Shown here: positions 14,635 through 29,561 of the stretch, piece after piece
Layout of the letters: the number at the start of each line of letters is the position of its first letter
How positions within the stretch are numbered: position 1 is the first letter of the stretch
Assembly: GCF_900110555.1 (NCBI RefSeq)
Contig: NZ_FOEE01000002.1
Location: 248,001 to 312,000 of the forward strand
Length of the DNA: 64,000 bases
Reading direction: 5' to 3'
From: Trujillonella endophytica
GTDB taxonomy: Bacteria > Actinomycetota > Actinomycetes > Mycobacteriales > Geodermatophilaceae
Notes under the pieces: model-generated
Seen by the model: only the letters and a program-made list of their open reading frames with translations
What the model was told of the DNA's origin: nothing
Databases searched by the model: none
Program-made: the position numbers and the translations under genes

Positions 14635-15858
14635 TTAGTCGGTGAGCTCCCGGACGACGGCGTCGGCGAGCAGCCGGCCCCGGTCGGTGAGGACGGCGCG
14701 GCCGGCGGCGTGCGCCGCGCCGTCCAGCAGCCCCCGGACGACGGCGTCGGCGGCCCGCAGCCGACCCGCGGGGGACAGCCGCGTCAGCCGCAGCCCGTCG
14801 CGCAGCCGCAGGCCGAGCATCACGGCCTCGAGCGCGCGGTCGTCGTCGTCCAGCAGCTCGGAACCGGCGGCCGGGCTCTCCCCCGCCGCCACCCGCGCCG
14901 CGTGCGCGGCCGGGTGCTTGACGTTCCACCAGCGCAGGCCGCCGACGTGGCTGTGGGCGCCGGGACCGACGCCCCACCAGTTGGCGTTGGCCCAGTACAG
15001 CTCGTTGTGCCGGCAGCGGGCCGCCGGGCCGGTCGCCCAGTTGGAGACCTCGTACCAGTCGAGACCGCCCCGGCGCAGGGTGGCGTCGGCCTGCTCGTAG
15101 CGGTCGGCCAGCACGTCGTCGTCGGGCATCGGCAGCTCGCCTCGGGCGATCCGCCGGGCCAGCCGGGTGCCCTGCTCGACGATGAGCGCGTAGGCGCTGA
15201 CATGGTCGACGGGCGAGGAGAGGACGACGTCGAGGGAGGCGGCCCAGTCGGCGTCGGTCTCCCCCGGCGTGCCGTAGATCAGGTCGAGGTTGACGTGTTC
15301 GAAGCCCGCGGCCCGCGCCTCGGCGGCGGCCTCGGCGGCCCGGCCCGGGGTGTGCCGGCGGTCCAGGACCGCGAGCACGTGCTCGGCGGCCGACTGCATC
15401 CCGAGACTGATCCGGGTGAAGCCGCCCGCGCGGAGCCGGGCCAGCGACGCCGGCGTGACCGACTCGGGGTTGGCCTCGGTGGTCACCTCGACGTCGGCGG
15501 CCACCGGGAACAGCTCGCGGACGGCGGCCAGGACGGCGACCAGGTCCTCGGCCGGCAGCAGGGTCGGGGTGCCGCCGCCCACGAAGACCGTCGACACCTC
15601 CGGCCGGTCGGGGCCGAGCTCTTCGGCGGCGCGGCGCAGCTCCGCGACCACGGTGCCGGCGTACTCGGACCGGTTCGCGCCCGGGCCCAGCTCGTCGGAG
15701 GTGTAGGTGTTGAAGTCGCAGTAGCCGCACCGGGTCGCGCAGAACGGCACGTGCACGTACAGCCCGAACGGGGTGCTCGACAGCCCCTCGCGCGCCGACC
15801 CGGGCAGCGAGAAGGGTGCCGCCGGCGGGGCGGGCAGCAGGGGCAGGGCGGTGTCCAT
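14635..15858 (-). CDS. hemW: Radical SAM heme chaperone HemW
   Basis: Coproporphyrinogen oxidase-like radical SAM protein that acts as a heme-trafficking chaperone. LYVHVPFCATRCGYCDFNTY supplies the CxxxCxxC cluster ligands (Cys 40, 44, 47), followed by FVGGGTPTLLP, TTEANPESV and ISLGMQS. The HemN-specific second-SAM features and extra cysteines are lacking, supporting HemW. ATG at 15856-15858; 407 residues; stop is TAA. It is divergent from the crotonase gene 50 bases away. Confidence 0.92.
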   Translation of the reverse strand: MDTALPLLPAPPAAPFSLPGSAREGLSSTPFGLYVHVPFCATRCGYCDFNTYTSDELGPGANRSEYAGTVVAELRRAAEELGPDRPEVSTVFVGGGTPTLLPAEDLVAVLAAVRELFPVAADVEVTTEANPESVTPASLARLRAGGFTRISLGMQSAAEHVLAVLDRRHTPGRAAEAAAEARAAGFEHVNLDLIYGTPGETDADWAASLDVVLSSPVDHVSAYALIVEQGTRLARRIARGELPMPDDDVLADRYEQADATLRRGGLDWYEVSNWATGPAARCRHNELYWANANWWGVGPGAHSHVGGLRWWNVKHPAAHAARVAAGESPAAGSELLDDDDRALEAVMLGLRLRDGLRLTRLSPAGRLRAADAVVRGLLDGAAHAAGRAVLTDRGRLLADAVVRELTD

Positions 15859-15907
15859 CTGCGACCAGTGTGCCGCGCCGCGCGGCGGCGCCCGGCAGGA
15901 TCGGCCT

Positions 15908-16669
15908 GTGACTCCCGACCGCGTGCTCCAGGTCTCCGTCGAGGGGGGCGTGGCGCGGCTGACCCTCGACTCCCCCGCCAACCGCAACGCGCTGTCGCGC
16001 GCGCTGCTCGCCGGGCTGCGGAGCGCGATCGACGACGCCGTGGCCGACGACGCGGTGCGGGTGCTCGTCCTCGACCACACCGGGCGGGTCTTCTGCTCCG
16101 GGATGGACCTCGCCGAGGCCGCCGGCACCGGCAGCGGCGACCAGGGGGTGCACGCCTTCCCCGACCTGCTCACCGCCCTGTGGCACTCCCCCAAGCCGGT
16201 GCTGGCCGCGGTCCGGGGCCCGGCCCGGGCGGGGGGCATCGGGCTGATGGCCGCCTGCGACGTCGTCGTCGCCGGGGCCTCGGCGACGTTCGGGATCAGC
16301 GAGGTGCGCGTCGGGCTGGTGCCCGCCGTCATCTCCGCGGTGCTCGCGCCGCGGATGACCCCGCACCTGCTGCACCGGCTGGCGCTCACCGGCGAGGTGT
16401 TCGGCCCCGACCTCGCGGAGCGGGCGGGCCTGGTCGACCTGGTGGCCCCCGACGGCGAGGTCGACGCCGTGGTGGCGGCGCAGGTCGCCGCGCTCGCGGC
16501 CGGGGCGCCCGCCGCGCTCGCCGAGACCAAGCGGCTGCTGCGTGCCGGCGGCCTGCGCGGGTCGTTCGACGACCTGTCGGAGATCTCCGCCCGGTTCTTC
16601 GCGAGCGAGGAGGGTCAGGAGGGCATCGCGGCCTTCCGGCAGAAGCGCCCGGCCCGCTGGGTGCCCTGA
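15908..16669 (+). CDS. Enoyl-CoA hydratase-related protein (crotonase family)
   Basis: A 253-residue crotonase. LTLDSPANRNALSRALLAGL, LDHTGRVFCSGMDLAEAAG and VRGPARAGGIGLMAACDVVVAGASATFGISEVRVGLVPAVI give both oxyanion-hole elements and the ExxxG helix. GTG at 15908-15910 with AGGA seven bases upstream is chosen; the longer frame starts inside hemW. Substrate unknown; possibly a branched-chain or fatty acyl-CoA. It converges on ppk2, eight bases away. Confidence 0.9.
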   Translation: MTPDRVLQVSVEGGVARLTLDSPANRNALSRALLAGLRSAIDDAVADDAVRVLVLDHTGRVFCSGMDLAEAAGTGSGDQGVHAFPDLLTALWHSPKPVLAAVRGPARAGGIGLMAACDVVVAGASATFGISEVRVGLVPAVISAVLAPRMTPHLLHRLALTGEVFGPDLAERAGLVDLVAPDGEVDAVVAAQVAALAAGAPAALAETKRLLRAGGLRGSFDDLSEISARFFASEEGQEGIAAFRQKRPARWVP

Positions 16670-16676
16670 CGCCGGG

Positions 16677-17624
16677 TCAGTCGTCCACCACGGCGGCGTC
16701 CAGTCCCTCCTCGGGTTCGGGGTACCGCGGATCCATCGCCTCGAGGGTGTCGGCGATGGTCCGGGCGATCACGAGGTTGCGATACCACTTGTTGTTCGCC
16801 GGGACGACGTACCACGGCGCGTACTCGGTCGACGTGGTGGCGATCGCCTCCTCGAACGCCGTCATGTACGCGTCCCAGTGCCGGCGCTCCCGCAGGTCGT
16901 TGGCGGAGAACTTCCACCGCTTGTCGGGGTCGGCGAGCCGGCTCTCCAGCCGCCGCTTCTGCTCGTCCTTGGAGATGTGCAGGTAGAACTTCAGCACCGT
17001 GACGCCGCTGAGGGTGAGCGACTGCTCGAACTGGTTGATCACCGCGTACCGCGGCCGCCAGACGTCCTCGGGGACCAGCCCCTTCACCCGCACCACGAGC
17101 ACGTCCTCGTAGTGCGAGCGGTTGAAGATGCCGATGAGGCCGCGGGACGGGACGCGCTGGTGGTAGCGCCAGAGGAAGTCGTGCGCGATCTCCTCGGCGC
17201 TGGGCGCCTTGAACGACCAGACCTGGCAGCCCTGCGGGTTCACCCCCTGGAAGACGTGCTTGATCGTGCCGTCCTTCCCGCCGGTGTCCAGGGCCTGGAG
17301 CACGAGCAGCAGGCTGCGCCGGTTCTCGGCGTACAGGCGCGACTGGAGTTCCGCGATCCGGTCGCGCGTGCTCTCCAGTTCCGGGAGGACGTCCTTCTGC
17401 TTCGCGTAGTGCTCGGACTCGTCCGGGTCGACGTCGGCCAGTCGCACGCCCTCCCCGGGCTCGACCCGGTACCGCGGGTAGTCCGGCTCGGGGGGCGATC
17501 CGGTCACACCGAGCCGCTCCGGCCGGGTCACCCGCGCCTCCTTCGCGGTGGCGTCCGCGGCCGCCTTCCGCGTCCGCTGCGACGCGGCTGCGGCCGCCCG
17601 CTTGCTCCTGCTCCCGTCGGCCAT
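16677..17624 (-). CDS. Polyphosphate kinase 2 family protein
   Basis: PPK2-type enzyme transferring phosphate between polyphosphate and nucleotides. The P-loop LVLQALDTGGKDGTIKHV, the lid and Walker B region IGIFNRSHYEDVLVVRV and the KWKFSANDLRERRHWDAYMTAFEEAI block are diagnostic. The first 35 residues are Ala/Lys/Arg-rich and variable. ATG at 17622-17624 after GGAGGG; 315 residues. The family includes NDP- and NMP-phosphorylating subclasses, which I cannot tell apart here. Confidence 0.92.
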   Translation of the reverse strand: MADGSRSKRAAAAASQRTRKAAADATAKEARVTRPERLGVTGSPPEPDYPRYRVEPGEGVRLADVDPDESEHYAKQKDVLPELESTRDRIAELQSRLYAENRRSLLLVLQALDTGGKDGTIKHVFQGVNPQGCQVWSFKAPSAEEIAHDFLWRYHQRVPSRGLIGIFNRSHYEDVLVVRVKGLVPEDVWRPRYAVINQFEQSLTLSGVTVLKFYLHISKDEQKRRLESRLADPDKRWKFSANDLRERRHWDAYMTAFEEAIATTSTEYAPWYVVPANNKWYRNLVIARTIADTLEAMDPRYPEPEEGLDAAVVDD

Positions 17625-17719
17625 GCCGCCCTCCCTGACGCCCCGGCCCCGCCTCGTCCCGGCCGCTGCCGGGTGGAGTGCTCCCGTACCCGCTCGGCGC
17701 GCGCCCGATGCCCGAGGGC

Positions 17720-18385
17720 TCAGGCGAGCAGCAGCCGCACCCACGCATCGGCCAGCCAGGCGGCGTAGCGGTCCGCGGGCCACCCGCGGTCGTCGACGAG
17801 CAGCGCCCGGTACTCGGCGGAGTTCATGCTCCAGACGACGTCGGCGACCTCGTCGTCGGTCAGGTCGGCGCGCAGCTCGCCGGTGGCCCGCAGGTCGGCG
17901 GCGAACAGCCGCATGTTGGCCGCCCGTCGGGCGTTGATCTCCGCCCGCAGGGCGGCGCACCCGGCGTCGGTGCGCGCCGCCTCGGCGAGCGCCCGGTGCA
18001 CGGGGGCCATCCGGACGCCGATCTCGGCGACCGCGGCGGCGTAGATCCCGATCTTCTCCCGGCCCGTACCGGCCGCCCGGACCCGGCGGACGTAGTCCCG
18101 CTCCGCCGCCGGCACCACCTCGTCGGTGCCCGACAGCGCCGTCTCCAGCACCTCGCGAAGCAGCTGCGGCTTGCGCCCCACCGCCGCGTAGACGGTGTCG
18201 ACGGCGACCCCCGCCGCCTCGGCGACGGCCGCCACCGTGGTCGCCGCGAACCCCCGCTCGCCGAACAGCTCGCGGGCCGCCCGCAGGACGGCCCGCCGGG
18301 TCGCCGCCGCCTGCTCGGTCCGGGCCGGGGACGTGTACCGGCGACGGGCCGGGGGTCCCTTGACGGCGTCGCTCACGAGGGGCAC
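17720..18385 (-). CDS. TetR-family transcriptional regulator
   Basis: The N-terminal helix-turn-helix RRAVLRAARELFGERGFAATTVAAVAEAAGVAVDTVYAAVGRKPQLL (residues about 30-75) is typical TetR; the C-terminal ligand domain is unassigned. It is divergent from the small monooxygenase-like gene at 18436, and an imperfect palindrome in the 50-base gap is a likely operator, so it probably controls that gene and itself. Confidence 0.9.
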   Translation of the reverse strand: MPLVSDAVKGPPARRRYTSPARTEQAAATRRAVLRAARELFGERGFAATTVAAVAEAAGVAVDTVYAAVGRKPQLLREVLETALSGTDEVVPAAERDYVRRVRAAGTGREKIGIYAAAVAEIGVRMAPVHRALAEAARTDAGCAALRAEINARRAANMRLFAADLRATGELRADLTDDEVADVVWSMNSAEYRALLVDDRGWPADRYAAWLADAWVRLLLA

Positions 18386-18394
18386 GGTACCGGT

Positions 18395-18422
18395 ATTCGT
18401 CCGAAGGTGGTTCGGACCGAAT
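18395..18422. promoter_or_regulatory. Putative TetR operator
   Basis: ATTCGTCCGAA (18395-18405), five bases, TTCGGACCGAAT (18411-18422): an inverted repeat with one inserted base, located between the divergent TetR gene and the gene at 18436. Position and symmetry suit a TetR site; binding is inferred. Confidence 0.55.
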
Positions 18423-18435
18423 CTGGAGGGCCGCC

Positions 18436-18738
18436 ATGACCTACGCCTACATCCAGGACGTCCCCATCGACGCCGAGCTGTACGGCCGGATCCTCGAGCA
18501 CCTCGGCGAGGAGCCGATGGAGGGGCAGCTGCTGCACCTGTGCGTGCGGCGACCCGAGGGCGGGCTGCGCTACATCGACGTGTGGGAGTCCGAGGGGCAC
18601 TGCGCCCGCGCGTTCGACGAGCGCATCCACCCGGCCGTCGACGCGGCCTTCGGTGGGCACCGGCCGCCGGGCGAGCCCACCGTCACCCGCCTCGACGTCG
18701 TCGACGTCCGGGGCGCGGCCATCGGGGTGCGGACCTGA
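18436..18738 (+). CDS. Small dimeric alpha/beta-barrel (antibiotic biosynthesis monooxygenase-like) protein
   Basis: A 100-residue protein (MTYAYIQDVPIDAELYGRIL ... YIDVWESEGHCARAFDERIHP). The pattern of strand, helix and IDVWES-type strand is that of ABM/DIM-barrel proteins. It begins with the same MTYA and carries the same VWES block as the protein at 44882, so the two are paralogues. GGAGG precedes the ATG. Divergent TetR gene suggests inducible expression. Enzymatic activity unknown. Confidence 0.82.
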   Translation: MTYAYIQDVPIDAELYGRILEHLGEEPMEGQLLHLCVRRPEGGLRYIDVWESEGHCARAFDERIHPAVDAAFGGHRPPGEPTVTRLDVVDVRGAAIGVRT

Positions 18739-18785
18739 CCGCCGCCACCCTTGCCCGTCCGCGTGCGGGCGCGGACCCTGCGGGG

Positions 18786-18938
18786 ATGACCGCACCGGAG
18801 GACGCCCGCACCCGCTTCCGCTCGCTGCCCGAGCCGGTGCGCCCCGAGGACACGGTGGAGTCGCTGGACACGTCGACCCTGCCGGTGCCCGACGAGGGGG
18901 ACGACCGCGACCAGCTGCTCCGGCACGTCGGCGGATAG
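18786..18938 (+). CDS. Small acidic hypothetical protein (50 residues)
   Basis: MTAPEDARTRFRSLPEPVRP ... DEGDDRDQLLRHVGG. It has no transmembrane segment and no domain I recognise. Support is moderate: the composition is protein-like rather than random, and it follows the gene at 18436 on the same strand. The ribosome-binding site is weak (GGGG next to ATG). It ends in TAG (18936-18938), three bases before the convergent selB stop. Read-through of that TAG would continue only through antisense of selB. Confidence 0.55.
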   Translation: MTAPEDARTRFRSLPEPVRPEDTVESLDTSTLPVPDEGDDRDQLLRHVGG

Positions 18939-18941
18939 AGC

Positions 18942-20687
18942 TCAGCGCAGCCGGCGGGTCGCGTCCGGCAGCCGCTCGGTGACCCCGCGCCCGTCCAGCC
19001 ACTCCATCAGCGGGACGGCGACCCGGCGGCTGGTGCCCCAGGCCGTGCGGGCCTGGCCGAGGGAGAACGGGGCGGGCAGCCGCGCGAGCCGGTCGCGGGC
19101 CACCCGCTCGATGCCCGGCGCGAGGTGCACGCCGTCGGCGATGCGCACCAGCTGACCGTCCCGGACGGCGGCGGCGAGCTCGCGCGGCCCCAGGCCGGCG
19201 GAGGCCAGCTGCTCGGCGTCCGGCGCCGCGAACGGATCGTCGGCCAGCCGGGCCCGGATCGCGTCGACCGCGCGCTGCACCGCCGGCGGCAGGCCCGCCG
19301 CCGGCGCGGCGACGCGGCCCTCGCGCAGCACCAGCGGCGGGCGGACGACGGCGCGGACCAGCTCGTCGTCGGGCAGGTCGAGCTCGCGGCGGACGACGGC
19401 GACCGGCGGCCCGGCCTCGAGCGGACGCGCGGACCGGTGGGCGGCCACCACCGACGGCAGCGCCGCGGCCAGCTCGTCGAGCAGGCCCGGGGCCGCCAGC
19501 CACGGCCCGACCCGGTCGGCGCCCGGCGGCACCGGCCACCCCATCGCGGCGAAGTCGGCCGCCCGCACGACCCGGCGGCGGGCCAGGTCGGCCGCGGCCC
19601 CCGCGGATCCGGCCGGGGCGGTGGCCAGCTCGGCGCCCCGCTGCCGGGCGGCGCCGCGGCGGCGCAGCTCCGGCGGGGCGACGTCGCGGACGTCGGCACC
19701 GAGCACGCGGCGGGCGCCGGGATCGCGCAGCAGCAGGCGGTCGCCGATCCGCAGCGGCAGCGGCGCGGACAGCTGCAGCCGCACCGCCGTCCCCCCCAGG
19801 GGACGAACACGGGCCGCGACGGCCGCCGACCCGACGTGCACCACCAGCTCGGCCGGCAGCCGCCCCTCCGGCGCGCCGGTCAGGGTGACGTCGACGAGGC
19901 CGGTGGAGCGGAAGGCCCCCGGGGTCAGCAGCGCGTCCCCCCGGGAGAGCTCCTCGACCGCGACCCCGCGCAGGTTGAGCGCCACGCGGGCGGTGGCGGC
20001 GGCCCGCGGCACGGGCTCGCCCAGCGCGTGCACGCCGCGCACCCCGACCTCGCGCGCACCGAGGGCCAGCCGGTCCCCGGCGGCGACGGTGCCCGCGCCG
20101 AGGGTGCCGGTCACGACCGTGCCCGCCCCGGAGATCGGGAACGCCCGGTCGATCCAGAGCCGGACCGGCGCGGCGGCATCCGGTGCGGGGAGGCCGGCCA
20201 GCAGGGCCTCCAGGGCGGCGGCCAGCTCGGGGACCCCGGCGCCGGTGACGCCGCTGACCACGACGCCCGGCACCGCGCCCATCGACGTCCCGGCGAGCCG
20301 CTCGGTCGCATCGGCGAGCACCGGAGCGGGATCGGCCAGGTCGGCCTTGGTCACCGCCAGCAGGGCGTGGCGGACGCCGAGCGCGTCGAGGACCGCGACG
20401 TGCTCGGCCGTCTGTGCCGACCAGCCGTCGTCGGCGGCGACGACCACGAGCGCCGCGGGCACCGGGCCGACACCCGCGAGCATGTTCCCGACGAACCGCT
20501 CGTGCCCGGGGACGTCGACCACCGCCACCCGCCGCCCCGACGGCAGCGTCGTCCAGGCGAAGCCGAGGTCGATGGTCAGCCCGCGGCGGCGCTCCTCCTC
20601 CCACCGGTCGGGCTCCATCCCGGTGAGCGCGCGGACGAGCGTGGACTTGCCGTGGTCGACGTGCCCGGCGGTGGCGATCACGTCCAT
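18942..20687 (-). CDS. selB: Selenocysteine-specific elongation factor SelB
   Basis: Brings Sec-tRNA(Sec) to the ribosome at a recoded stop codon by recognising a SECIS hairpin in the mRNA. GTPase motifs are [10 protein letters not shown] (8-17), [21 protein letters not shown] and TKADL. EF-Tu-like domains 2 and 3 follow, and the C-terminal third (about 390-581) is the winged-helix array that binds SECIS RNA, ending [20 protein letters not shown]. Length 581 fits. It starts ten bases after selA and forms a selA-selB operon. Since the tRNA here reads UAG, this SelB should act at UAG codons. Confidence 0.95.
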
Positions 20688-20697
20688 GCGCGCCTCG

Positions 20698-22008
20698 TCA
20701 CCGCCCGGCCGCCGCCAGCACGGCGGTCGCGAGCGCCTCGTCGTCCTCCGGCGGCACGCTGCGCAGGTCCAGCAGCGTGCGGCCGCCCTCGACGTAGCCG
20801 ACGACGGGCGGCGCGCCCGCCCGCAGCGGCCCCGCCAGATCCGCCGGGAGGGAGACCGCGGCGGAGGGCAGCGGATGCTCCGGCGCCCCTCCCCCGCCGA
20901 CCCGGGCCTCGCTGTCGACCGCCGCGGCGTCGACCCCGGCGGCCGCCAGCCGCGCGGCCAGTGCCGCGGCCCGGGCGCGGAGCCCGGCGAGGTCGGCGGC
21001 GAGCATCCGGCGCACCGGCGGCAGCGGTCCCCGCAGCGTCGCCTCCAGCGCCGCGAGGGTGGTCTTGTCCACGCGCAGCGCGCGGTAGAGGGGGTGCCGG
21101 CGCAGCCGCTGGATCAGGTCCGCCCGGCCGAGCACGAGCCCGGCCTGCGGGCCGCCGAGCAGCTTGTCGCCGCTGGCCAGGACGAGGTCGGCGCCGTCGG
21201 CCAGGGTGGTCTGCAGGTCCGGCTCGTCGGGCAGCGCGGGCTCCGGCGCCGGCAGGCCCGACCCGACGTCGGCGACCAGCGGCACGCCGGACCCGGCCAG
21301 CGCCGCGGCCAGTTCGGCGACGGGCACGGCCCGGGTGAAGCCGCGGACGACGAAGTTCGACGGGTGCACCTTGAGCACCGCGCCGGTGTCGGGCCCGAGC
21401 GCACGGGTGTAGTCCTCCGCGGTCACCCGGTTCGTCGTCCCCACCTCGCGGAGCCTGGCGCCGGTGGACTCGAGGAGCTCGGGGATCCGGAAGCCGTCCC
21501 CGATCTCGACCAGCTCGCCCCGCGCGATCACCAGCTCGCGGCCCTGGCCGAGGGCCGTGGCGGCCAGGGCGAGCGCGGCGGCGCAGTTGTTGACCACGAG
21601 CGCGGCGCCGGCGGCGGGGACGGCGGCGCGCAGCGCGGCGAGCGCGGCCTCGCCCCGGGGACCCCGGCGGCCGGTGCGCAGGTCCAGCTCGACGTCGGTG
21701 GTGCCGGCCGCCGCGGTGAGCGCCGCGACCGCCGACAGGGACAGCGGGGCCCGGCCCAGGTTGGTGTGCACGAGGACGCCGGTGGCGTTGAGGACGGGCC
21801 GCAGGCTCGCGGCGGTGTCGGGCAGGGCGGCGAGGACCTCGGCGACGGCGTCGGCGGGGGCCAGCCCACCGGCCCGGATCCGGGCCTGCACGGTGCGTAC
21901 CGCCTCTCTCACCAGATCGCGACCGAGGCGCTCGACGGCGGGCACGATCTGCCCGTCCGCGAGCAGCGTGTCGGTGCGCGGCACCTGCCGGCGCGGGTCG
22001 GCACTCAT
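20698..22008 (-). CDS. selA: L-seryl-tRNA(Sec) selenium transferase SelA
   Basis: PLP enzyme that converts Ser-tRNA(Sec) to Sec-tRNA(Sec) with selenophosphate. [21 protein letters not shown] and the PLP-binding Lys282 in [14 protein letters not shown] are diagnostic; [13 protein letters not shown] and [11 protein letters not shown] are also typical. 436 residues; ATG at 22006-22008, 51 bases downstream of the 3' end of the tRNA-Sec gene on the same strand, so tRNA, selA and selB may share transcription. Confidence 0.96.
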
Positions 22009-22059
22009 CGACTGCGGAGCGTAGGCGCCGGGCCGGGGGGCGGCCCGGCGCCGGCCGGC

Positions 22060-22155
22060 TGGCGGAGGCGGACGGGAATCGAACCCGCCTGACCGAGGTG
22101 CTCGGCCACGTCGGCTTTAGAGGCCGCGGGGGCCACCAGGCGCCCTGACGCCTCC
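22060..22155 (-). tRNA. selC: Selenocysteine tRNA with anticodon CUA (reads UAG)
   Basis: On the minus strand the gene starts GGAGGCG (from 22155) and ends CGCCTCC, G and an encoded CCA. The T arm is GCGGG-TTCGATT-CCCGT, the D arm is long, and a large variable arm (GTGGCCGAGCACCTCGGTC) lies between anticodon and T arms, as in tRNA-Sec. The anticodon arm is CGGC-CTCTAAA-GCCG; numbering the seven-base loop from position 32 gives anticodon CTA at 34-36, where the standard tRNA-Sec has TCA. Total 96 bases. The eighth acceptor pair would be U-C. Adjacent selA and selB confirm identity. Confidence 0.94.
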
Positions 22156-22162
22156 GGCCACG

Positions 22163-22168
22163 ACAGTA
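22163..22168 (-). promoter_or_regulatory. Probable -10 box of the tRNA-Sec gene
   Basis: TACTGT on the minus strand, seven bases before the first tRNA base, fits TANNNT spacing for transcription starting at the tRNA 5' end. No convincing -35 was seen. Confidence 0.45.
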
Positions 22169-22275
22169 CTTGCCAACGCGTTCTCGGCGTGTCGCCCGGC
22201 GTGTCGCAGGAACACGGTTCGCCACTCGGCGTCGCACCACCAGAACTGTCGGTGGCCGGTGCCAGCATCCCCGAT

Positions 22276-22893
22276 GTGAGCCGCCGCACCGAGCCCCGCC
22301 ACTCCGCGACGCTGCCTCCGGTCGCCCTGACCCCCGAGGAGGCCGCCGCCGTCGCCGTCGCCCTCGCAGCCGGGCCCGACGGCCCCTATGCCGACGCCGG
22401 TCGCGGCGCACTCGAGAAGGTGCTCGCCGTGCTGGAGCCCGATCCGCAGCGCCGCGCGCAGCTGCTGGCCACCAGCCTGTGGGTGAGCGCCGAGGCGGGC
22501 CGCTCCGCCGAGCTGCGGGCGACCGTCGAGCGGGCCGTGACCCAGCGCCGGGTGGTCGTCCTGCACTACCGCGACGGCAAGGGCCGGGCCGGCCGGCGGG
22601 AGGTCGAGCCGCAGCTGCTCACCCGCAGCAGCGACCACTGGTACCTCGTGGCCTGGTGCCGCGAGCGGCAGGCGCCGCGCTGGTTCCGGGAGGACCGGAT
22701 CGAGTCGGTCGAGCTGACCGGCGAGGCGGCGCCGCGCCGCGACCCGGGCATCTTCGGCGCCCCGTCCACCACCCACCCCGCCGGCCGGGCGCTCGGCCGC
22801 GGCGCCACCGCACGCGTGCCCGCCGCGCGGGAGCCGGTGGCCGAGACGCTGCCCCCGCGGCTGCGCGTGCTGCAGGGCGGCCGGGAGGGCTGA
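22276..22893 (+). CDS. WYL-domain protein lacking its DNA-binding domain
   Basis: The WYL domain is clear: VEPQLLTRSSDHWYLVAWCRERQAPRWFREDRIESVEL, preceded by the linker PPVALTPEEAAAVAVALAAG that in full-length YafY-type regulators follows the helix-turn-helix. The HTH (about 60-70 residues) is missing, as the gene begins right beside tRNA-Sec. Starts are uncertain: GTG at 22276 or GTG at 22189, neither with a good ribosome-binding site. It may be a truncated remnant or an HTH-less ligand-binding protein. Confidence 0.72.
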   Translation: MSRRTEPRHSATLPPVALTPEEAAAVAVALAAGPDGPYADAGRGALEKVLAVLEPDPQRRAQLLATSLWVSAEAGRSAELRATVERAVTQRRVVVLHYRDGKGRAGRREVEPQLLTRSSDHWYLVAWCRERQAPRWFREDRIESVELTGEAAPRRDPGIFGAPSTTHPAGRALGRGATARVPAAREPVAETLPPRLRVLQGGREG

Positions 22894-22981
22894 TGACGGG
22901 CCCCGTCCTCCTCATCCCTCGCACTCTCGGGACGAGCCTCTGGACGGGGCCTGCGGCAGGCCGTCGGACACCACGGCCACA

Positions 22982-22987
22982 TAGATT
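22982..22987 (+). promoter_or_regulatory. Probable -10 box of selD (leaderless)
   Basis: TAGATT ends six bases before the GTG start of selD, the TANNNT spacing found at leaderless actinobacterial genes. There is no Shine-Dalgarno sequence, which agrees with leaderless translation. Confidence 0.5.
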
Positions 22988-22993
22988 CAGCTG

Positions 22994-24001
22994 GTGACCA
23001 GCGCGCCCGCCCGCATCCGGCTCACCCAGTACGCGCACGGCGGCGGCTGCGCCTGCAAGATCCCGCCCGGCGAGCTGGAGCAGGTGGTCGCCGGGCTCGG
23101 CCTGGGCGGCCCCGCCTCACCGGCCGCGGAGCTGGTGGTCGGCCTCGACGACGGTGACGACGCCGCGGTGGTGCGCCTCGCCGGCGGCCAGGGCATCGTG
23201 CTGACGACCGACTTCTTCACCCCGGTCGTCGACGACGCGTTCACCTTCGGCCGCATCGCCGCCGCCAACGCGCTCTCCGACGTGTACGCGATGGGCGGCA
23301 CCCCGGTGGTGGCCGTGAACCTGCTCGGCTGGCCCCGCGACGTGCTCCCGGCCGAGCTCGCCGCCGAGGTGCTCCGCGGCGGCCTCGAGGTGGCCCACGA
23401 GGCCGGCTGCCACGTGGGCGGCGGCCACTCGATCGACGACCCGGAACCCAAGTACGGGATGGCGGTCACCGGGGTGGTCGACGTCGACCGGATCATCACC
23501 AACTCCGCGGCCGTGGCCGGCACCCCGCTGTCGCTCACCAAGCCGCTGGGCGTCGGCGTGCTGAACAGCCGGATGAAGGCCACCGGCGAGGTGTCGGAGG
23601 AGGCCGTCGCGTCGATGACCGCGCTCAACCGCGACGCCGGCCGGGCCGCGGTGGCCGCCGGCATCCGGGCCGGCACCGACGTCACGGGCTTCGGCCTGCT
23701 CGGCCACCTCTACAAGATGGCCCGGGCCAGCGGGGTGACCGCGGTGGTCGACGCGGCCGCCGTCCCCTACCTGGCCGGTGCGCGGGAGGCGCTCGCCGCG
23801 GGCCACGTGTCCGGCGGCACCCGGCGCAACCTGGACTGGGTGCGCCCGCACACCGACCTGTCGGCGGTGGGCGAGGGCGAGGCGCTGCTGCTCGCGGACG
23901 CGCAGACCTCGGGCGGCCTGCTGCTGGGCGGCGAAGTGGCGGGGGCGCCGGTGATCGGCGAGTTCGTGCCCCGCGGGGAGCACGTCGTCGTCGTCCGCTG
24001 A
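22994..24001 (+). CDS. selD: Selenide, water dikinase SelD
   Basis: Makes selenophosphate from selenide and ATP, the selenium donor for SelA. The N terminus has YAHGGGCACKIPPGE, with the catalytic Cys19 and Lys22 at the positions of E. coli Cys17 and Lys20; Cys19 is encoded by TGC, so this SelD is not itself a selenoprotein. DDAAVVRL, LTTDFFTPVVDDAFTFGRIAAANALSDVYAMGG and GGHSIDDPEPKYGMAVTG are AIRS-family ATP and substrate motifs. 335 residues from GTG at 22994. With selA, selB and the tRNA it completes the pathway. Confidence 0.96.
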   Translation: MTSAPARIRLTQYAHGGGCACKIPPGELEQVVAGLGLGGPASPAAELVVGLDDGDDAAVVRLAGGQGIVLTTDFFTPVVDDAFTFGRIAAANALSDVYAMGGTPVVAVNLLGWPRDVLPAELAAEVLRGGLEVAHEAGCHVGGGHSIDDPEPKYGMAVTGVVDVDRIITNSAAVAGTPLSLTKPLGVGVLNSRMKATGEVSEEAVASMTALNRDAGRAAVAAGIRAGTDVTGFGLLGHLYKMARASGVTAVVDAAAVPYLAGAREALAAGHVSGGTRRNLDWVRPHTDLSAVGEGEALLLADAQTSGGLLLGGEVAGAPVIGEFVPRGEHVVVVR

Positions 24002-24017
24002 CAGCCGCGAGATTCCC

Positions 24018-24159
24018 GGGCAATTTCGCGCTACTGCCCCGGGGCAACTTCGCACCTCGCCCCGGGGCAATTTTGCGCTTCCGCCCCGGGGCAATTTCGC
24101 GCTTCTGCCCCGTGCAACTTCGCGCTTCCGCCCCGGGGCAATTTCGCGCTTCTGCTCGG
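24018..24159. repeat. Six tandem copies of a 23-24 base repeat
   Basis: Units begin GGGCAATTTCGCGCTTC and end GCCCC, starting at 24018, 24042, 24065, 24089, 24112 and 24136. Each junction makes the palindrome GCCCCGGGGC (one copy has GTGC). Copies differ by a few substitutions. The array lies 16 bases after selD and before the oxidoreductase gene. The third-base AT content of AATTT stands out from the surroundings. Function unknown; it could fold into serial hairpins and end selD transcription. Confidence 0.88.
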
Positions 24160-24202
24160 TCGGGGGGCGAGGACCCGCGTCGCTGCTGGTCGGGGCCTCG
24201 GC

Positions 24203-24208
24203 TAGCGT
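24203..24208 (+). promoter_or_regulatory. Probable -10 box for the oxidoreductase gene (leaderless)
   Basis: TAGCGT, seven bases before the ATG at 24216, with no ribosome-binding site between. Fits a leaderless transcript. Confidence 0.4.
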
Positions 24209-24215
24209 CGCGAGC

Positions 24216-25184
24216 ATGCTGGCTGCCTTCGTCTCGACCCCGTCCCCGGAGGACCCGCTCTCGGTCCTGGAGATCGGCGACCGCCCCGATCCCGAGCCCC
24301 GCGAGGGCTGGACGACGGTGCAGGTCAAGGCCGTCTCGCTCAACCACCACGACCTGTTCAGCCTGCGCGGCGTGGGGCTGCCGCAGGAGCGGATGCCGAT
24401 GATCCTGGGCACCGACGCGGCGGGCGTGGACGAGGACGGCAACGAGGTGGTCGTGTCCGGCGTCGTCGTCGGCACCCCGGGCTGGACCGGCGACGAGACC
24501 CTCGACCCCAAGCGCACGCTCTTCTCCGAGCTGCACCAGGGCACCATGGCCGAGCGGGTGGTCGTGCCTCGCCGCAACCTGCTGCCCAAGCCGGCGGAGC
24601 TGACGTTCGGCGAGGCCGCCTGCCTGCCGACCGCGTGGCTGACCGCCTACCGGATGCTGTTCGTGAAGTCCGGTCTCCGCCCGGGGCAGACCGTGCTGGT
24701 GCAGGGCGCCAGCGGCGGCGTCGCGACCGCGCTGGTGGTGCTCGGGCGGGCCGCCGGGCTGCGGGTGTGGGTCACCGGCCGCAGCGAGGACAAGCGCAGC
24801 GCCGCGCTGGCGCTCGGCGCCGACCAGGCCTTCGAGTCCGGTGCGCGGCTGCCCGAGCGGGTGGACGGCGTCATGGAGACCGTCGGCGAGGCGACCTGGT
24901 CGCACAGCGTCAAGTCGCTCAAGCCCGGCGGCGTCATCGTCACCTCGGGCGCGACGACCGGCTTCAACCCGGGCGCCGAGCTCAACCGCGTCTTCTTCAC
25001 CCAGCTGTCGGTGATCGGCTCCACGATGGGCACCCGCGACGAGCTGGCCGACCTCATCGCGATGTGCCGGACGACCGGTGTCCGGCCGCAGATCGACGTC
25101 GAGCTCCCGCTCGGCGAGGCCCGCGAGGGGTTCGCGCGCATGCTCGAGGGCCGCACGAACGGGAAGATCGTCTTCACCCTCTGA
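24216..25184 (+). CDS. Zinc-binding-dehydrogenase family (MDR) quinone oxidoreductase-like protein
   Basis: Medium-chain dehydrogenase/reductase of 322 residues. GroES-like N domain (VQVKAVSLNHHDLFSLRGVG, ILGTDAAGVDEDG) and Rossmann domain (GQTVLVQGASGGVATALVVLGRA, VWVTGRSEDKR). The structural-zinc cysteines are missing, as in zinc-free quinone oxidoreductases. NAD(P)H-dependent activity is expected; substrate unknown. It overlaps in direction with the small gene at 25199, which follows after 14 bases. Confidence 0.9.
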   Translation: MLAAFVSTPSPEDPLSVLEIGDRPDPEPREGWTTVQVKAVSLNHHDLFSLRGVGLPQERMPMILGTDAAGVDEDGNEVVVSGVVVGTPGWTGDETLDPKRTLFSELHQGTMAERVVVPRRNLLPKPAELTFGEAACLPTAWLTAYRMLFVKSGLRPGQTVLVQGASGGVATALVVLGRAAGLRVWVTGRSEDKRSAALALGADQAFESGARLPERVDGVMETVGEATWSHSVKSLKPGGVIVTSGATTGFNPGAELNRVFFTQLSVIGSTMGTRDELADLIAMCRTTGVRPQIDVELPLGEAREGFARMLEGRTNGKIVFTL

Positions 25185-25198
25185 CCGACGGAGGCGTC

Positions 25199-25507
25199 GT
25201 GATCGCACGGACGTGGCGCGGCTGGGTCCGCACCGACGATCGCGACGCCTACGTGGCCTACGTCGAGGAGACCGGGATGGCGCACTACCGCCGGACCCCG
25301 GGCAACCGCGGCGCGCACCTGCTCACCCGTGACCTCGGCGACGGCCGGACCGAGGTCCTGACGTTCAGCCTCTGGGACTCGCTGGACGTGATCGCGGGCT
25401 TCGCCGGCGCCGACATCTCCCGCGCCGTCTTCTATCCCGAGGACGAGCGCTACCTGGTCGACCGCGAGGTCACCGTCAACCACTACGAGGTCCACGAGCC
25501 CGCCTGA
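25199..25507 (+). CDS. Antibiotic biosynthesis monooxygenase-like small protein
   Basis: A 102-residue DIM-barrel-type protein: MIARTWRGWVRTDDRDAYVA, LLTRDLGDGRTEVLTFSLWDSLDVIAGFAGADISRAVFYPEDERYL, VNHYEV. The pattern RTWRGWV ... LSLWDS ... HYEV is common in ABM-like proteins. GTG at 25199 has GGAGG five bases upstream. It is likely co-transcribed with the preceding oxidoreductase. Activity not known. Confidence 0.84.
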   Translation: MIARTWRGWVRTDDRDAYVAYVEETGMAHYRRTPGNRGAHLLTRDLGDGRTEVLTFSLWDSLDVIAGFAGADISRAVFYPEDERYLVDREVTVNHYEVHEPA

Positions 25508-25548
25508 CCGGGCACCCTCCCCCGCGCCCGCTGTCGGACGGCACCCCC

Positions 25549-25602
25549 CTTCGTGTCAACGTGCATTGACACGGCCGACCGACGCAACCTAGGTTGACAG
25601 CC
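25549..25602 (+). promoter_or_regulatory. Palindromic promoter/operator of the HTH-Clp_N pair
   Basis: TTGACA (25566-25571), 18 bases, TAGGTT (25590-25595), then seven bases to the ATG at 25603: a good promoter and apparently a leaderless gene. The -35 is the right arm of GTGTCAA-N6-TTGACAC, and the -10 lies in the perfect palindrome CAACCTAGGTTG. Both dyads share TCAA/TTGA half-sites, so one regulator, perhaps the encoded HTH protein, could bind both. Confidence 0.7.
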
Positions 25603-25836
25603 ATGGCGGACACGGTGGCGGTGGCGGCAGCAGCCGCCGACGACGACCCGGCCGTGGGCCTGCGTGCCGTCCGGTCGCTCCGGGTGCTGGTGGAGCGGCT
25701 GGAGGCCCTGCAGGTCGCACAGGCCCGGAGTCGGGGCTGGACCTGGGAGCAGATCGCCCACCTGTTGGGCGTGAGCCGCCAGGCCGTGCACAAGAAGCAC
25801 GCGAGCGGTCGCGGGCCGCTCCGGCGGAAGGACTGA
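25603..25836 (+). CDS. Small helix-turn-helix DNA-binding protein
   Basis: A 77-residue protein; an Ala/Asp-rich N terminus is followed by a helix (VRSLRVLVERLEALQVAQAR) and a helix-turn-helix SRGWTWEQIAHLLGVSRQAVHKKHASG. ATG at 25603. It precedes a Clp-N protein by two bases, a pairing I know as common in actinobacteria. It likely represses its own promoter and controls the Clp-N partner. Confidence 0.88.
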   Translation: MADTVAVAAAAADDDPAVGLRAVRSLRVLVERLEALQVAQARSRGWTWEQIAHLLGVSRQAVHKKHASGRGPLRRKD

Positions 25837-25838
25837 GC

Positions 25839-26369
25839 ATGTTCGAGCGATTCAGCCAGGAAGCACGCGCGGCGGTGGTCGGGGCCCGGACGGAGGCCCA
25901 CCGCCTGCACAGCGAGCGCATCGGCACCGAGCACCTGCTCCTCGCCCTCCTCGACCGGCCCACCCCCACCTCCGCCGTGCTCGCCCGGCACGGGCTCACC
26001 CGGGAGGCCGTCACCGCGGCGGTGACCCGGCTGGGCGGCGACCTGGACGCGCAGGCGCTGGGCACCTTCGGCATCGACCTCGACGCCGTGCGGGACCGGG
26101 TGGAGGCCACCTTCGGCCGCGGCGCGCTCGACCGGCGCCCGGGCGACAGCTCCGCCGGCGGGCACCTGCCCTTCGACCGGCAGGCCAAGAAGGTCCTGGA
26201 GCTCTCGCTGCGGGAGACCCTCGCGATGCGGCAGAAGACGATCACCGACGGGCACATCGCCCTCGGCCTGATCCGGGAGGGCCAGGGGCTCGCGACGGCG
26301 GTGATCGCCGACGGCGACGTCGACCGCGCGCAACTGGCCCGGGAGATCAGGACCGCGCTGCTGACCTGA
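25839..26369 (+). CDS. Clp N-terminal domain protein (two Clp_N repeats)
   Basis: A stand-alone relative of the ClpC/ClpB N domain, with MFERFSQEARAAVVGARTEAHRLHSERIGTEHLLLALL (1-40) and the second repeat LPFDRQAKKVLELSLRETLAMRQKTITDGHIALGLI (about 108-148). No ATPase modules are present. Such proteins may modulate Clp substrate choice; that is inference. The start lies two bases after the HTH gene stop, so the two are co-translated. Confidence 0.9.
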   Translation: MFERFSQEARAAVVGARTEAHRLHSERIGTEHLLLALLDRPTPTSAVLARHGLTREAVTAAVTRLGGDLDAQALGTFGIDLDAVRDRVEATFGRGALDRRPGDSSAGGHLPFDRQAKKVLELSLRETLAMRQKTITDGHIALGLIREGQGLATAVIADGDVDRAQLAREIRTALLT

Positions 26370-26419
26370 CCACGGCGGGCGTCCTTCCCCGGATCACTCC
26401 GGTGCGGAAGGCTGCGGGT

Positions 26420-28885
26420 GTGCCACTCGCGCCGGGGGACGTCTTCGCCGGTTACACCATCATCCGACCCCTGGGCACCGGCGGGATGGGCGCGGTGTAC
26501 CTGGCCCGCCACCCACGGTTGCCCCGCACCGACGCGCTCAAGGTGCTGCGGCCCGAGCACTCCGCCGATCCGGACTTCGCTCGCCGCTTCGAGCGGGAGG
26601 CGGACCTGGTGGCACGCCTGGCGCACCGCAACGTCGTCCCCGTGCTCGACCGCGGCGAGCATGCCGGGCAGCTGTGGCTGTCCATGCGCTACGTCGAGGG
26701 GATGGACGCCGAGCAGGCACTCGCCGAGGCCGGCGGGCTGCTGCCGCCGGAGCGGGCCGTGCGCATCGTCACCGGCGTGGCGGCGGCGCTCGACGCCGCC
26801 CACCGCCACTCGCTCGTGCACCGCGACGTGAAGCCGGCGAACGTGCTGCTGGCCCCGGGCGACGACGACGAGCCCGAGCAGGTGTTCCTCACCGACTTCG
26901 GGATCGCCAAAGCGCTCGACGGCGGAACCTCGCTGACCCGCACCGGCATCGTCGTCGCGACCTTCGAGTACGCCTCCCCCGAGCAGTTCGAGGCCAAGCC
27001 GCTGGACCCCCGCTCCGACGTCTACTCGCTGGGCTGCCTGCTGTACCGGCTGATCGCCGGGAGCGTCCCCTTCCCCGGGCACTCGGTGGCCGCGGCGCTG
27101 CACGGCCACCTCGCCCTGCCCCCGCCGCGGCCGACCGCGATGGCCCCGTGGCTGCCCCCCGGCCTGGACGACGTCGTCGTCCGCGCCATGGCGAAGGACC
27201 CGGCCGACCGGTTCCCCACCTGCCGGGCCCTGGCAGTCGCCGCCGTCGCCGCGCTGGACGACCTCCCCCCCGCGCCCGCGCCGCCCTACCGGGTGGCCGT
27301 GTCCACGGGCGGAGTCACCACCGGTCCGGTCCGGACCGACGGGCTGTCGGCCGCCGAGACCGACCGCCTGGTCGCGCTCGTCCGCCGGACCCGCTTCTTC
27401 GGGCTGCCGGCCAGCCTGCCGGTCGACCCCTCCGGCGAGACGACCCGGTCGACGATTCCCGCCCGGCCGGTGACGCTGGAGATCGCCACGGGCGCGGGGG
27501 TGCACCGGGTGAGCGCCGACCTGGCCGACCCGCGCCGCCCCCCGGACCTCGACGAACTCGTCGCCCTCGTCGAGTCGGCCGCCCGGCGCACGGCCGGGGG
27601 GCCGCCGCCTGCGACCACGGTCCATCCACCGGCCGCGGTGACCGTGGTCGGCGCGCCGACCGGCCGGGAGTCCGCCGTGCACCGCACCGGCCCCCTGCCG
27701 CCCCCGCCGCCGGTGTCGGGGGCCGCCTACCTCCCCCGGCCGGCGCCCACTCCTCCGCCGGCGGCCACTCCCCCTCCGGCGGCCCCTCCGACGTACGTCC
27801 CAGCAGCTCCACCGGCTGCCCGACCCCCGGCCGCCCTCCCGTCCGCGCGTCCGTCCCGCCGGAACCGGTGGATCGTCGCGGCGGTGGCCGTCGTCGCCCT
27901 CGCCGGCGCCGGCGGGGCGGTGCTCCTGCTGGACGGCGACGACCCGGGCGACCCGGCGGCCACCGGGAACGGTGCCGGCGCGAGCACCTCCGCCTCCGGG
28001 ACGGCGGAGCCCGTCCTCCCCACCGGCGCCCCCCTGGCCGACGACCTCCTCGTGCAGCCCCGGGACGTCGGCGGGGAGGTGGACCTGCACTCGGTGGACT
28101 CGGCCACCGGGGAGACGGCGAACTTCCTGACGACGGCGGCCGGGCCCGACGTCGATCCGGTGGTCTCGCCGGACCGGCGCACCGTGGTCTACCGGCACGA
28201 GACCAACGGCGGCTCGGAACTGCGCGCCGTCGCGAGCGACGGGACCGGGGACCGGCCGCTGTTCGACCCGCCGCTGGAGAACTGCCCGGAGCCGGGCCGC
28301 CCGGCCTGGAACCCGGCGGACCCGCACCTGCTGGCCCTCACCTGCACCGCCGGGAACACGACGACCCTGCTGCTCGCGGGCCTGGACGGCACGGTGCAGG
28401 AGCTCGACCCCGGCCGGGCGTACATCGGCGACCTCGCGTTCGGCGCGGACGGCACGCGGGTCGTGTACTGGGGCACCGACACCCCCGGCCGGGACGGCGG
28501 CGAGCTTTTCGCACTGCCGATCGACGGCTCGGGTCCCGCCGAGCAGCTGACCGAGTCCGGCCCGGGCATCGACGCCGACCCCTCGGTCTCGCCCGACGGG
28601 ACCCGGATCGCGTTCCGCCGCGAGGCCGAGGACGGGAGCCGGGAGATCTATGTCCTGGCCGTGGACGACGGCAGCCTGACGCGCCTGACCGAGGGCTGGT
28701 TCGAGCAGGACCCGATCTGGTCGCCCGACGGCACGCAGATCGCCTTCAAGAGCAACCGCACCGGCCCGCAGGGAGAGGGAACCGACCACCTGTGGGTGAT
28801 GACCGCCGACGGCGAGGACCTCACCCAGCTCGCCACCGACGACGCCGAGGCCGACGGCTACGCGCCGGCGTGGGGGCGGCGCTGA
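26420..28885 (+). CDS. Transmembrane Ser/Thr protein kinase with emfourin-like domain and extracytoplasmic beta-propeller
   Basis: Kinase domain at residues about 11-280: GTGGMGAVYLA, Lys41 in ALKVLR, HRDVKPANVLL, DFGIAK, YASPEQ. Next, about 295-390, comes LSAAETDRLVALVRRTRFFGLPASLP ... RPVTLEIATGAGVHRVSADL ... LDELVALVESA, similar to emfourin/protealysin-inhibitor-like domains. A Pro-rich linker leads to a membrane helix (484-504, IVAAVAVVALAGAGGAVLLL) and a C-terminal propeller with repeated DGTRIAFRR and SPDGTQIAF (PD40/TolB-like) units. PASTA repeats are absent. GTG at 26420 is preferred because GGAAGG precedes it; a GTG at 26402 is possible. Ligand and targets unknown. Confidence 0.92.
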   Translation: MPLAPGDVFAGYTIIRPLGTGGMGAVYLARHPRLPRTDALKVLRPEHSADPDFARRFEREADLVARLAHRNVVPVLDRGEHAGQLWLSMRYVEGMDAEQALAEAGGLLPPERAVRIVTGVAAALDAAHRHSLVHRDVKPANVLLAPGDDDEPEQVFLTDFGIAKALDGGTSLTRTGIVVATFEYASPEQFEAKPLDPRSDVYSLGCLLYRLIAGSVPFPGHSVAAALHGHLALPPPRPTAMAPWLPPGLDDVVVRAMAKDPADRFPTCRALAVAAVAALDDLPPAPAPPYRVAVSTGGVTTGPVRTDGLSAAETDRLVALVRRTRFFGLPASLPVDPSGETTRSTIPARPVTLEIATGAGVHRVSADLADPRRPPDLDELVALVESAARRTAGGPPPATTVHPPAAVTVVGAPTGRESAVHRTGPLPPPPPVSGAAYLPRPAPTPPPAATPPPAAPPTYVPAAPPAARPPAALPSARPSRRNRWIVAAVAVVALAGAGGAVLLLDGDDPGDPAATGNGAGASTSASGTAEPVLPTGAPLADDLLVQPRDVGGEVDLHSVDSATGETANFLTTAAGPDVDPVVSPDRRTVVYRHETNGGSELRAVASDGTGDRPLFDPPLENCPEPGRPAWNPADPHLLALTCTAGNTTTLLLAGLDGTVQELDPGRAYIGDLAFGADGTRVVYWGTDTPGRDGGELFALPIDGSGPAEQLTESGPGIDADPSVSPDGTRIAFRREAEDGSREIYVLAVDDGSLTRLTEGWFEQDPIWSPDGTQIAFKSNRTGPQGEGTDHLWVMTADGEDLTQLATDDAEADGYAPAWGRR

Positions 28886-28904
28886 GGCTCGGCCGGCGGG
28901 TACC

Positions 28905-29561
28905 TCAGCCGGCGTGGGCGACCCGGGCAGCGATGCGGCCGGCGATCCTCTCGCGGGTCCGCTCGGGGAGCACGGGGACGGCGGGCGCCAGCTCGGGCAG
29001 CCGCTGCTTCTGCGTCGTGTAGGCGCGGAACGCCGTCCCGACGGTGACGCCGTGCGCGGGCCGGTCGATCACCTCGACGTCGTCCCCCGCGCCGATCTCG
29101 CCGGTCTCGAGCACCCGCAGGTAGGCGCCGGGGGCCCCGTGCACGGTGAATCGCCTGACCAGCTGCGGCACGCCCCAGAAGCGCTCGAAGTTGGCGCACG
29201 GGATGCGGCAGTCGGTGACCTGCAGCAGCGCGGTGCCGACCCGCCAGCGCTCGCCGAGGACGGCGCCGGTGAGGTGGAGCCCGGCGGTGCGGAGGTTCTC
29301 GCCGAAGCGCCCCGGCGGCAGCTCCCGGTCGAGCTCCGCGGCCCACCAGTCGGCGTCCTCCTGGGCGTAGGCGTAGAGCGCCTGGCCCTCGCCGCCGTGG
29401 TAGCGGCGGTTGACCTGGACGTCGCCGTCCAGACCGAGCGGGTGGACGGCGACCCGGCCGGGCACCGGCCGCTTGTCGATGCCGGTGCGCTGCGGCTTGC
29501 GCTCGGGGACGGACGGGAGGTCCGTACCCGAGACGCAGACGGCCTCGAGCCGGCCGCTCAC
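28905..29561 (-). CDS. MOSC domain-containing protein
   Basis: A 218-residue protein related to Yii[62 protein letters not shown], and the conserved Cys in [18 protein letters not shown] proteins bind molybdenum cofactor or carry sulfur for it. The ATG overlaps the lepA stop as ATGA, so it is translationally coupled to lepA. Substrate unknown. Confidence 0.91.

Follow-up and report, generated by a model that had tools for sequence, protein, structure and literature searches.

A selenocysteine tRNA with anticodon CUA in Trujillonella endophytica and the apparent reading of UAG as selenocysteine

Bacteria make selenocysteine (Sec) on its own tRNA, which is charged with serine before SelA converts the serine to Sec using selenophosphate supplied by SelD, and the elongation factor SelB then delivers the product at a SECIS hairpin. 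In the standard form of this system the codon is UGA and the anticodon of tRNA-Sec is UCA. A UAG-decoding tRNA-Sec of Geodermatophilus and Blastococcus was reportedly described by Mukai and colleagues in Angewandte in 2016. In its available parts, PMC5330540 devotes a section to the Geodermatophilaceae tRNA-Sec with its CUA anticodon and gives formate dehydrogenase, UGSC and AhpC examples of this UAG-Sec system. Sec at UAG in Geodermatophilaceae has therefore already been published and the phenomenon is not new; the literature that the initial annotation of the present locus had pointed to is real. The same codon-anticodon pair has also been built in the laboratory: the accessible portion of PMC3834832 describes an E. 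coli tRNA-Sec(CUA) that, with UAG and a SECIS, gave 448 U/l as against 308 U/l for the UGA/UCA pair on the matching plasmid.

Codons seldom change their meaning in nature, and the history of such changes is mostly lost. Here we describe a tRNA-Sec gene with anticodon CUA in Trujillonella endophytica, together with its neighbours, its distribution and the selenoprotein genes that accompany it. From the sequences compared, we consider it very probable that this tRNA reads UAG as Sec, that the switch took place inside one GTDB family and that genes changed over from UGA to UAG on more than one occasion.

The tRNA-Sec gene and its locus

We analysed a stretch of 64,000 nucleotides from T. endophytica (contig NZ_FOEE01000002.1, positions 248,001 to 312,000), referred to here as the window. 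In the window ARAGORN predicts a single tRNA gene (22060-22155, minus strand), with anticodon cta and the label Pyl. The Rfam tRNA-Sec model RF01852 matches 22064-22155 on the same strand over the full model (1-91), with 64.2 bits against a cut-off of 47 (E 2.1e-11). This gene, selC, has a long D stem, a long variable arm and an encoded CCA, and both the sequence and the Rfam alignment place the anticodon CUA at 22118..22120 (minus strand) in the loop CUCUAAA. The initial annotation had put a tRNA-Sec with anticodon CUA at exactly these coordinates and on this strand, and had named a covariance fold with a UCA anticodon as an outcome that would speak against it; the alignment keeps CUA. Measured against bacterial tRNA-Sec, selC fits the covariance model at full length and departs from the UCA anticodon, CUA being the published variant, so that its membership in the wider tRNA-Sec family stands on features other than the anticodon.

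The eighth acceptor pair had also been singled out, as apparently U-C. The pair is indeed U.C, but it is common to both kinds of gene (78 of 78 with CUA and 32 of the 37 with UCA that were read), so it is no peculiarity of selC and we rejected it as a special feature. The 78 CUA genes are the window's own and those of 77 further loci, leaving out one locus (L061) that is cut by a contig end, and the 37 UCA genes comprise seven from genera g6-g8 and 30 from outside Geodermatophilaceae. At position 31-39, C-G is found in 78/78 CUA genes, and the UCA genes have U-A in 34/37 and C-G in three.

The genes expected for Sec synthesis and delivery lie beside selC, as had been claimed, and all score above their NCBIfam cut-offs. 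On the minus strand are selA (20698..22008; L-seryl-tRNA(Sec) selenium transferase, 436 aa; TIGR00474, 420.9 bits, cut-off 267.9) and selB (18942..20687; Sec-specific elongation factor, 581 aa; TIGR00475, 268.4 bits, cut-off 242.25), whose product ends in a C-terminal winged helix (PF09107 SelB-wing_3, 46.7 bits). On the plus strand is selD (22994..24001; selenide water dikinase, 335 aa; TIGR00476, 381.6 bits, cut-off 125), the translation of which has Cys, not Sec, near the N terminus. A WYL-domain gene (22189..22893, plus strand; PF13280, 67.1 bits) separates selD from selC; a relative occupies the same place in locus L223, and the gene may be a regulator of the locus.

Among the matches listed, the nearest named SelA proteins are those of Blastococcus and Geodermatophilus, at up to 90% identity, and a SelA tree places this genome with Blastococcus, within Geodermatophilaceae. 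The CUA clade of this tree adjoins five rows, of which two are Saccharopolyspora and three belong to family f15 (support 99/96), and not the UCA genera, and an AU test does not reject a single clade for the SelA of Geodermatophilaceae (p 0.121). Exchange of the sel module between lineages is possible on this topology. One contig of Blastococcus endophyticus holds two sel loci (L018 and L027), separated by about 59 kb; both include selA and a CUA tRNA-Sec, and the two tRNA sequences differ.

Extent of the CUA anticodon

We examined 80 of 193 selA loci, those from named genomes; two belong to Saccharopolyspora and 78 are Geodermatophilaceae-like. ARAGORN reads CUA in 77 of these 78, and L061, the locus cut by a contig end, has CUA in the Rfam alignment. 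Two of the Geodermatophilaceae-like selA loci bear other labels: L055, which has a CUA tRNA-Sec, is titled Bacillus sp. AZ43 (unverified) and is mislabelled or mixed, and L059 is labelled as a Frankiales MAG.

In a sample of 397 genomes from the order, which did not extend to genera g6-g8, the CUA pattern was found in 75/75 members of the family and in 3/322 other genomes, none of them convincing. In G230 the match lies on a 4.8-kb contig (locus L223) with a CUA tRNA-Sec, a partial selA, a WYL gene, selD and a quinone reductase gene, arranged in the Geodermatophilaceae order and with protein identities of 78% for the selA part, 88% for selD and 87% for the quinone reductase; given this order and identity, the contig has probably strayed into the G230 assembly. 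In G236, ARAGORN finds no tRNA around the match, and in G234 the letters are, by eye, unlike tRNA-Sec.

Within the same GTDB family, seven genomes of three genera carry a closely similar tRNA-Sec with anticodon UCA: G067, G069 and G070 of g6, G071 of g7 and G073-G075 of g8. These genera comprise nine genomes, the remaining two of which (G068 and G072) gave no tRNA-Sec, and nine other genomes searched together with them gave CUA. The seven assemblies are fragmented, 76-98% complete and probably metagenome bins, and their placement in the family rests on GTDB. Genus g8 has a formate dehydrogenase of another type, with TGA at its site. Outside the family every tRNA-Sec read has UCA (30/30; 28 of the 46 selA-bearing relatives found among 80 genomes searched, plus the two Saccharopolyspora). 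The CUA switch thus appears to have a boundary within the GTDB family, three genera of which keep UCA.

Selenoprotein genes and the codon before Sec

The assembly of T. endophytica (4.87 Mb, 34 contigs, 99.64% complete) contains, on contig C30, a formate dehydrogenase gene with an in-frame TAG at 40211-40213. It reads NQARI(TAG)HSSTVPGLG, a site that we take to be the position where the formate dehydrogenase family carries Sec or Cys, and the frame runs on to a TGA at 42938-42940. Four of the eight rows matched by the family in this genome are pieces of the C30 gene, and one of these pieces has one TAG; the piece around the TAG matches Pfam Molybdop_Fe4S4 and Molybdopterin.

A hairpin of seven pairs with a GGTCT loop begins at base 15 counted from the T of TAG. 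Across 64 distinct sites drawn from the two codes, 96.4% of cells are paired, three of the seven pairs have changed on both sides, and the covariation score is 0.294 compared with 0.128 for shuffles, none of 500 of which scored as high. Most of this covariation comes from one pair (columns 18 and 30, 29 cells), and the outermost pair fails in 16/64 sites. The fold energy of the T. endophytica hairpin is no better than that of shuffles (z 0.15), so the case for a SECIS after the TAG rests on covariation. A formate dehydrogenase with in-frame TAG and a SECIS-like hairpin, which the initial annotation had suggested seeking, is thus present on C30.

The search for selenoproteins in this genome covered three families, and no in-frame TGA was found in formate dehydrogenase (8 rows), UGSC (1) or AhpC-TSA (6). 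The UGSC protein has Cys, encoded by TGT, at the Sec site. An AhpC selenoprotein has been reported from Blastococcus saxobsidens; none of the six AhpC-TSA rows here contains a stop, and neither do the other Mo-oxidoreductase matches, on contigs C10, C15 and C20. A search of the genome with RF01852 at E up to 0.001 found no second tRNA-Sec, the other six matches being tRNAs for Ser (3), Tyr, Leu and Met. A second tRNA-Sec with UCA alongside TGA selenoproteins, which would have told against the UAG reading, did not appear in these searches. With the sel genes, the TAG dehydrogenase and CUA in the one tRNA-Sec found in the assembly, T. endophytica appears to encode Sec by UAG instead of UGA, as first proposed.

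Among 73 crude gene calls over 114 kb, 64 end in TGA, eight in TAG and one in TAA; one of the eight TAG ends is the dehydrogenase's own TAG, which leaves 7/72. UAG therefore seems to end ordinary genes too, and would be shared with termination. With TGA as the main stop, UAG may have offered recoding a less crowded codon.

In the pathway established for bacteria, seryl-tRNA synthetase would charge the selC product with serine, SelA would convert the serine to Sec using selenophosphate from SelD, and SelB would bring the Sec-tRNA to a ribosome stopped at a UAG with the SECIS hairpin downstream, where insertion would compete with release factor 1. The anticodon would most simply have changed from UCA to CUA inside this GTDB family, along with U31-A39 to C31-G39, and the rewriting of UGA to UAG in selenoprotein genes would have taken place on more than one occasion.

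The family's selenoprotein genes follow its tRNA. Exactly one TAG is present in 118/123 formate dehydrogenase match rows, which represent 98 of the 100 matching genomes (112 searched); the other five rows (four fragments from G080 and one row from G034) lie off the Sec site, and one G080 fragment has a TGA elsewhere. Although G080 carries a CUA tRNA-Sec, both of its formate dehydrogenase copies (L221 on C12 and L222 on C4) lack some two dozen codons in the region of the Sec codon and the hairpin; the codons were either truly deleted twice or lost through faulty assembly at the hairpin. Relatives outside the family (the two Saccharopolyspora and 46 selA-bearing genomes) gave 42 rows at 67% identity or more, 40 of them with one TGA, two with no stop and none with TAG. 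UGSC gave 95 match rows in 54/112 genomes of the family, 72 with one TAG, 23 with no stop and none with TGA.

Several genomes of the family hold a second, divergent dehydrogenase. The copies that can be checked are not contamination: G001 has its second copy and its CUA tRNA on one contig, G039 and G058 have theirs on the same contigs as TAG UGSC genes, and in G007, G009 and G024 the copy lies on a contig of more than 4 Mb. A tree of 59 dehydrogenase rows (29 TAG rows, being 11 of the 32 main-clade genes and all 18 other family copies, each fetched, and 30 TGA relatives) requires the code to change six times (bootstrap range 5-6), and five of the six changes are forced by well supported branches; the tree gives no direction of change. 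As the TAG dehydrogenases are not one clade, genes must have crossed between codes repeatedly, most simply, it would seem, when genes transferred from UGA users were afterwards recoded.

The codon directly before the Sec codon also differs between the two codes. It is ATA in 50/50 TAG dehydrogenases read (30 best-scoring family loci and 20 picked, mostly second or divergent copies, of the 118 rows), and in 30 of the relatives' 42 rows it is ATT (26), ATA (3) or GTT (1), with no ATC. As the dehydrogenase genes are related, the 50 are not independent cases, and the tree has five or six code changes. Among other Ile codons within 140 codons, ATC accounts for 613 of 642 in the TAG set (ATA 27, ATT 2) and for 375 of 386 in the TGA set (ATT 8, ATA 3). 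In 38 of the 72 UGSC TAG rows, the codon before TAG is GAT in 25 and GAC in 13, compared with GAT at 5/218 other Asp codons, and all eight Cys versions read have GAC; four UGSC loci with no stop (L341-L344) are without the searched motif and stand outside the count. This pattern suggests that C directly before the Sec codon is disfavoured, and that the dehydrogenase preference moved from U to A along with the codon. The base there, which is A or U and more rarely C, may provide a context in which SelB has the advantage over the release factor. Pairing of this base with position 37 of the tRNA was considered and rejected by reasoning, since A37 fits the U before UGA but not the A before UAG.

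These observations leave several other readings to be weighed. That the tRNA is a pyrrolysine tRNA or another amber suppressor with no tie to selenium is suggested by the ARAGORN label, and a pyrrolysine tRNA would have the CUA anticodon in common with selC. Pyrrolysine tRNA has, however, a fold and a charging enzyme unlike those of tRNA-Sec, and the full-length match to RF01852, the fact that Rfam matched tRNA-Sec alone within 15000-30000, the adjoining selA, selB and selD, the tRNA-SeC label that ARAGORN itself gives to closely similar UCA genes and the in-frame TAG at the Sec site of formate dehydrogenase make this reading extremely unlikely. It is also very unlikely that the TAG dehydrogenases are one old lineage and that the tree was misled by a short, conserved protein fragment; the alignment has only 469 columns and 11 of 56 inner branches are weak, but holding the 29 TAG rows as one clade costs 147.8 log units and is rejected (AU p 5.4e-5), and five changes are forced by supported branches.

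The remaining alternatives concern how the rewriting came about. On the evidence of these alignments, the passage from UGA to UAG may have been a rewrite in several parts, involving the anticodon, the 31-39 pair and, in each selenoprotein gene, the Sec codon with the codon preceding it (ATT-TGA to ATA-TAG, and a preference for A or U over C in another family). Genes that came into the family from UGA users would have undergone this rewriting some five or six times, with a codon-specific 5' context favouring SelB over RF1 or RF2 and the codon acting as a gate on gene transfer; we consider this proposal about evenly poised between right and wrong. A substantial though smaller share of our belief goes to gene conversion over a short tract, with a TAG copy already in the genome as donor; this would have spread an ATATAG block, with ATA hitchhiking and not under selection. 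All 50 TAG genes read share ATATAG, and since the surrounding codons hardly vary from copy to copy, a conversion tract of about 30 bases would leave no trace. In four comparisons, on the other hand, the flanks of the extra copies L312 and L317 resemble TGA relatives at least about as closely as they do a main-clade TAG copy, while those of L316/L319 and of L320 show no clearly better match to TGA relatives, and UGSC, a separate family, also has less C before TAG than expected. That the preceding codon simply reflects codon usage or the hairpin we regard as improbable, since Ile elsewhere is mostly ATC in both sets and the site lies outside the counted hairpin, within which no partner for the base before Sec was seen by eye.

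Comparison with described systems

Within the titles and abstract openings searched, and in the available parts of PMC5330540, PMC8124441, PMC10778597, PMC7609411, PMC13188914 and PMC3834832, we found no account of the UCA genera, the polyphyly of the TAG dehydrogenases or the pattern in the codon before Sec; as most subscription literature falls outside this scope, this is weak evidence of novelty, and we claim for these three points only that they were not found. Since UCA and CUA occur in one GTDB family, with orthologues in both codes, the changes needed besides that of the codon become testable. The base before the Sec codon matters for the question of how SelB prevails over release factors and for the design of systems in which UAG encodes selenocysteine. 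If the multi-part rewrite is true, the codon would be a gate on gene transfer whose passing can be observed.

The closest described system is that of Geodermatophilus and Blastococcus, which belong to the same family and share the anticodon CUA and a TAG formate dehydrogenase; the system itself is no different here. Compared with those reports, the UGSC of T. endophytica has Cys (TGT) and its AhpC-TSA rows are without a stop. The engineered E. coli tRNA-Sec(CUA) has the same codon-anticodon pair and likewise depends on SelB and a SECIS, but it was made in the laboratory, and the portion of PMC3834832 available mentions neither a C31-G39 change nor an adapted 5' context. The standard UGA/UCA system, represented by the selABCD genes of E. 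coli and by Saccharopolyspora, uses the same factors, and the orthologous dehydrogenase of Saccharopolyspora shares the hairpin and its GGTCT loop. In contrast to that system, the pair here is CUA and UAG, the competitor would be RF1 and not RF2, and the codon before Sec is ATA in place of ATT.
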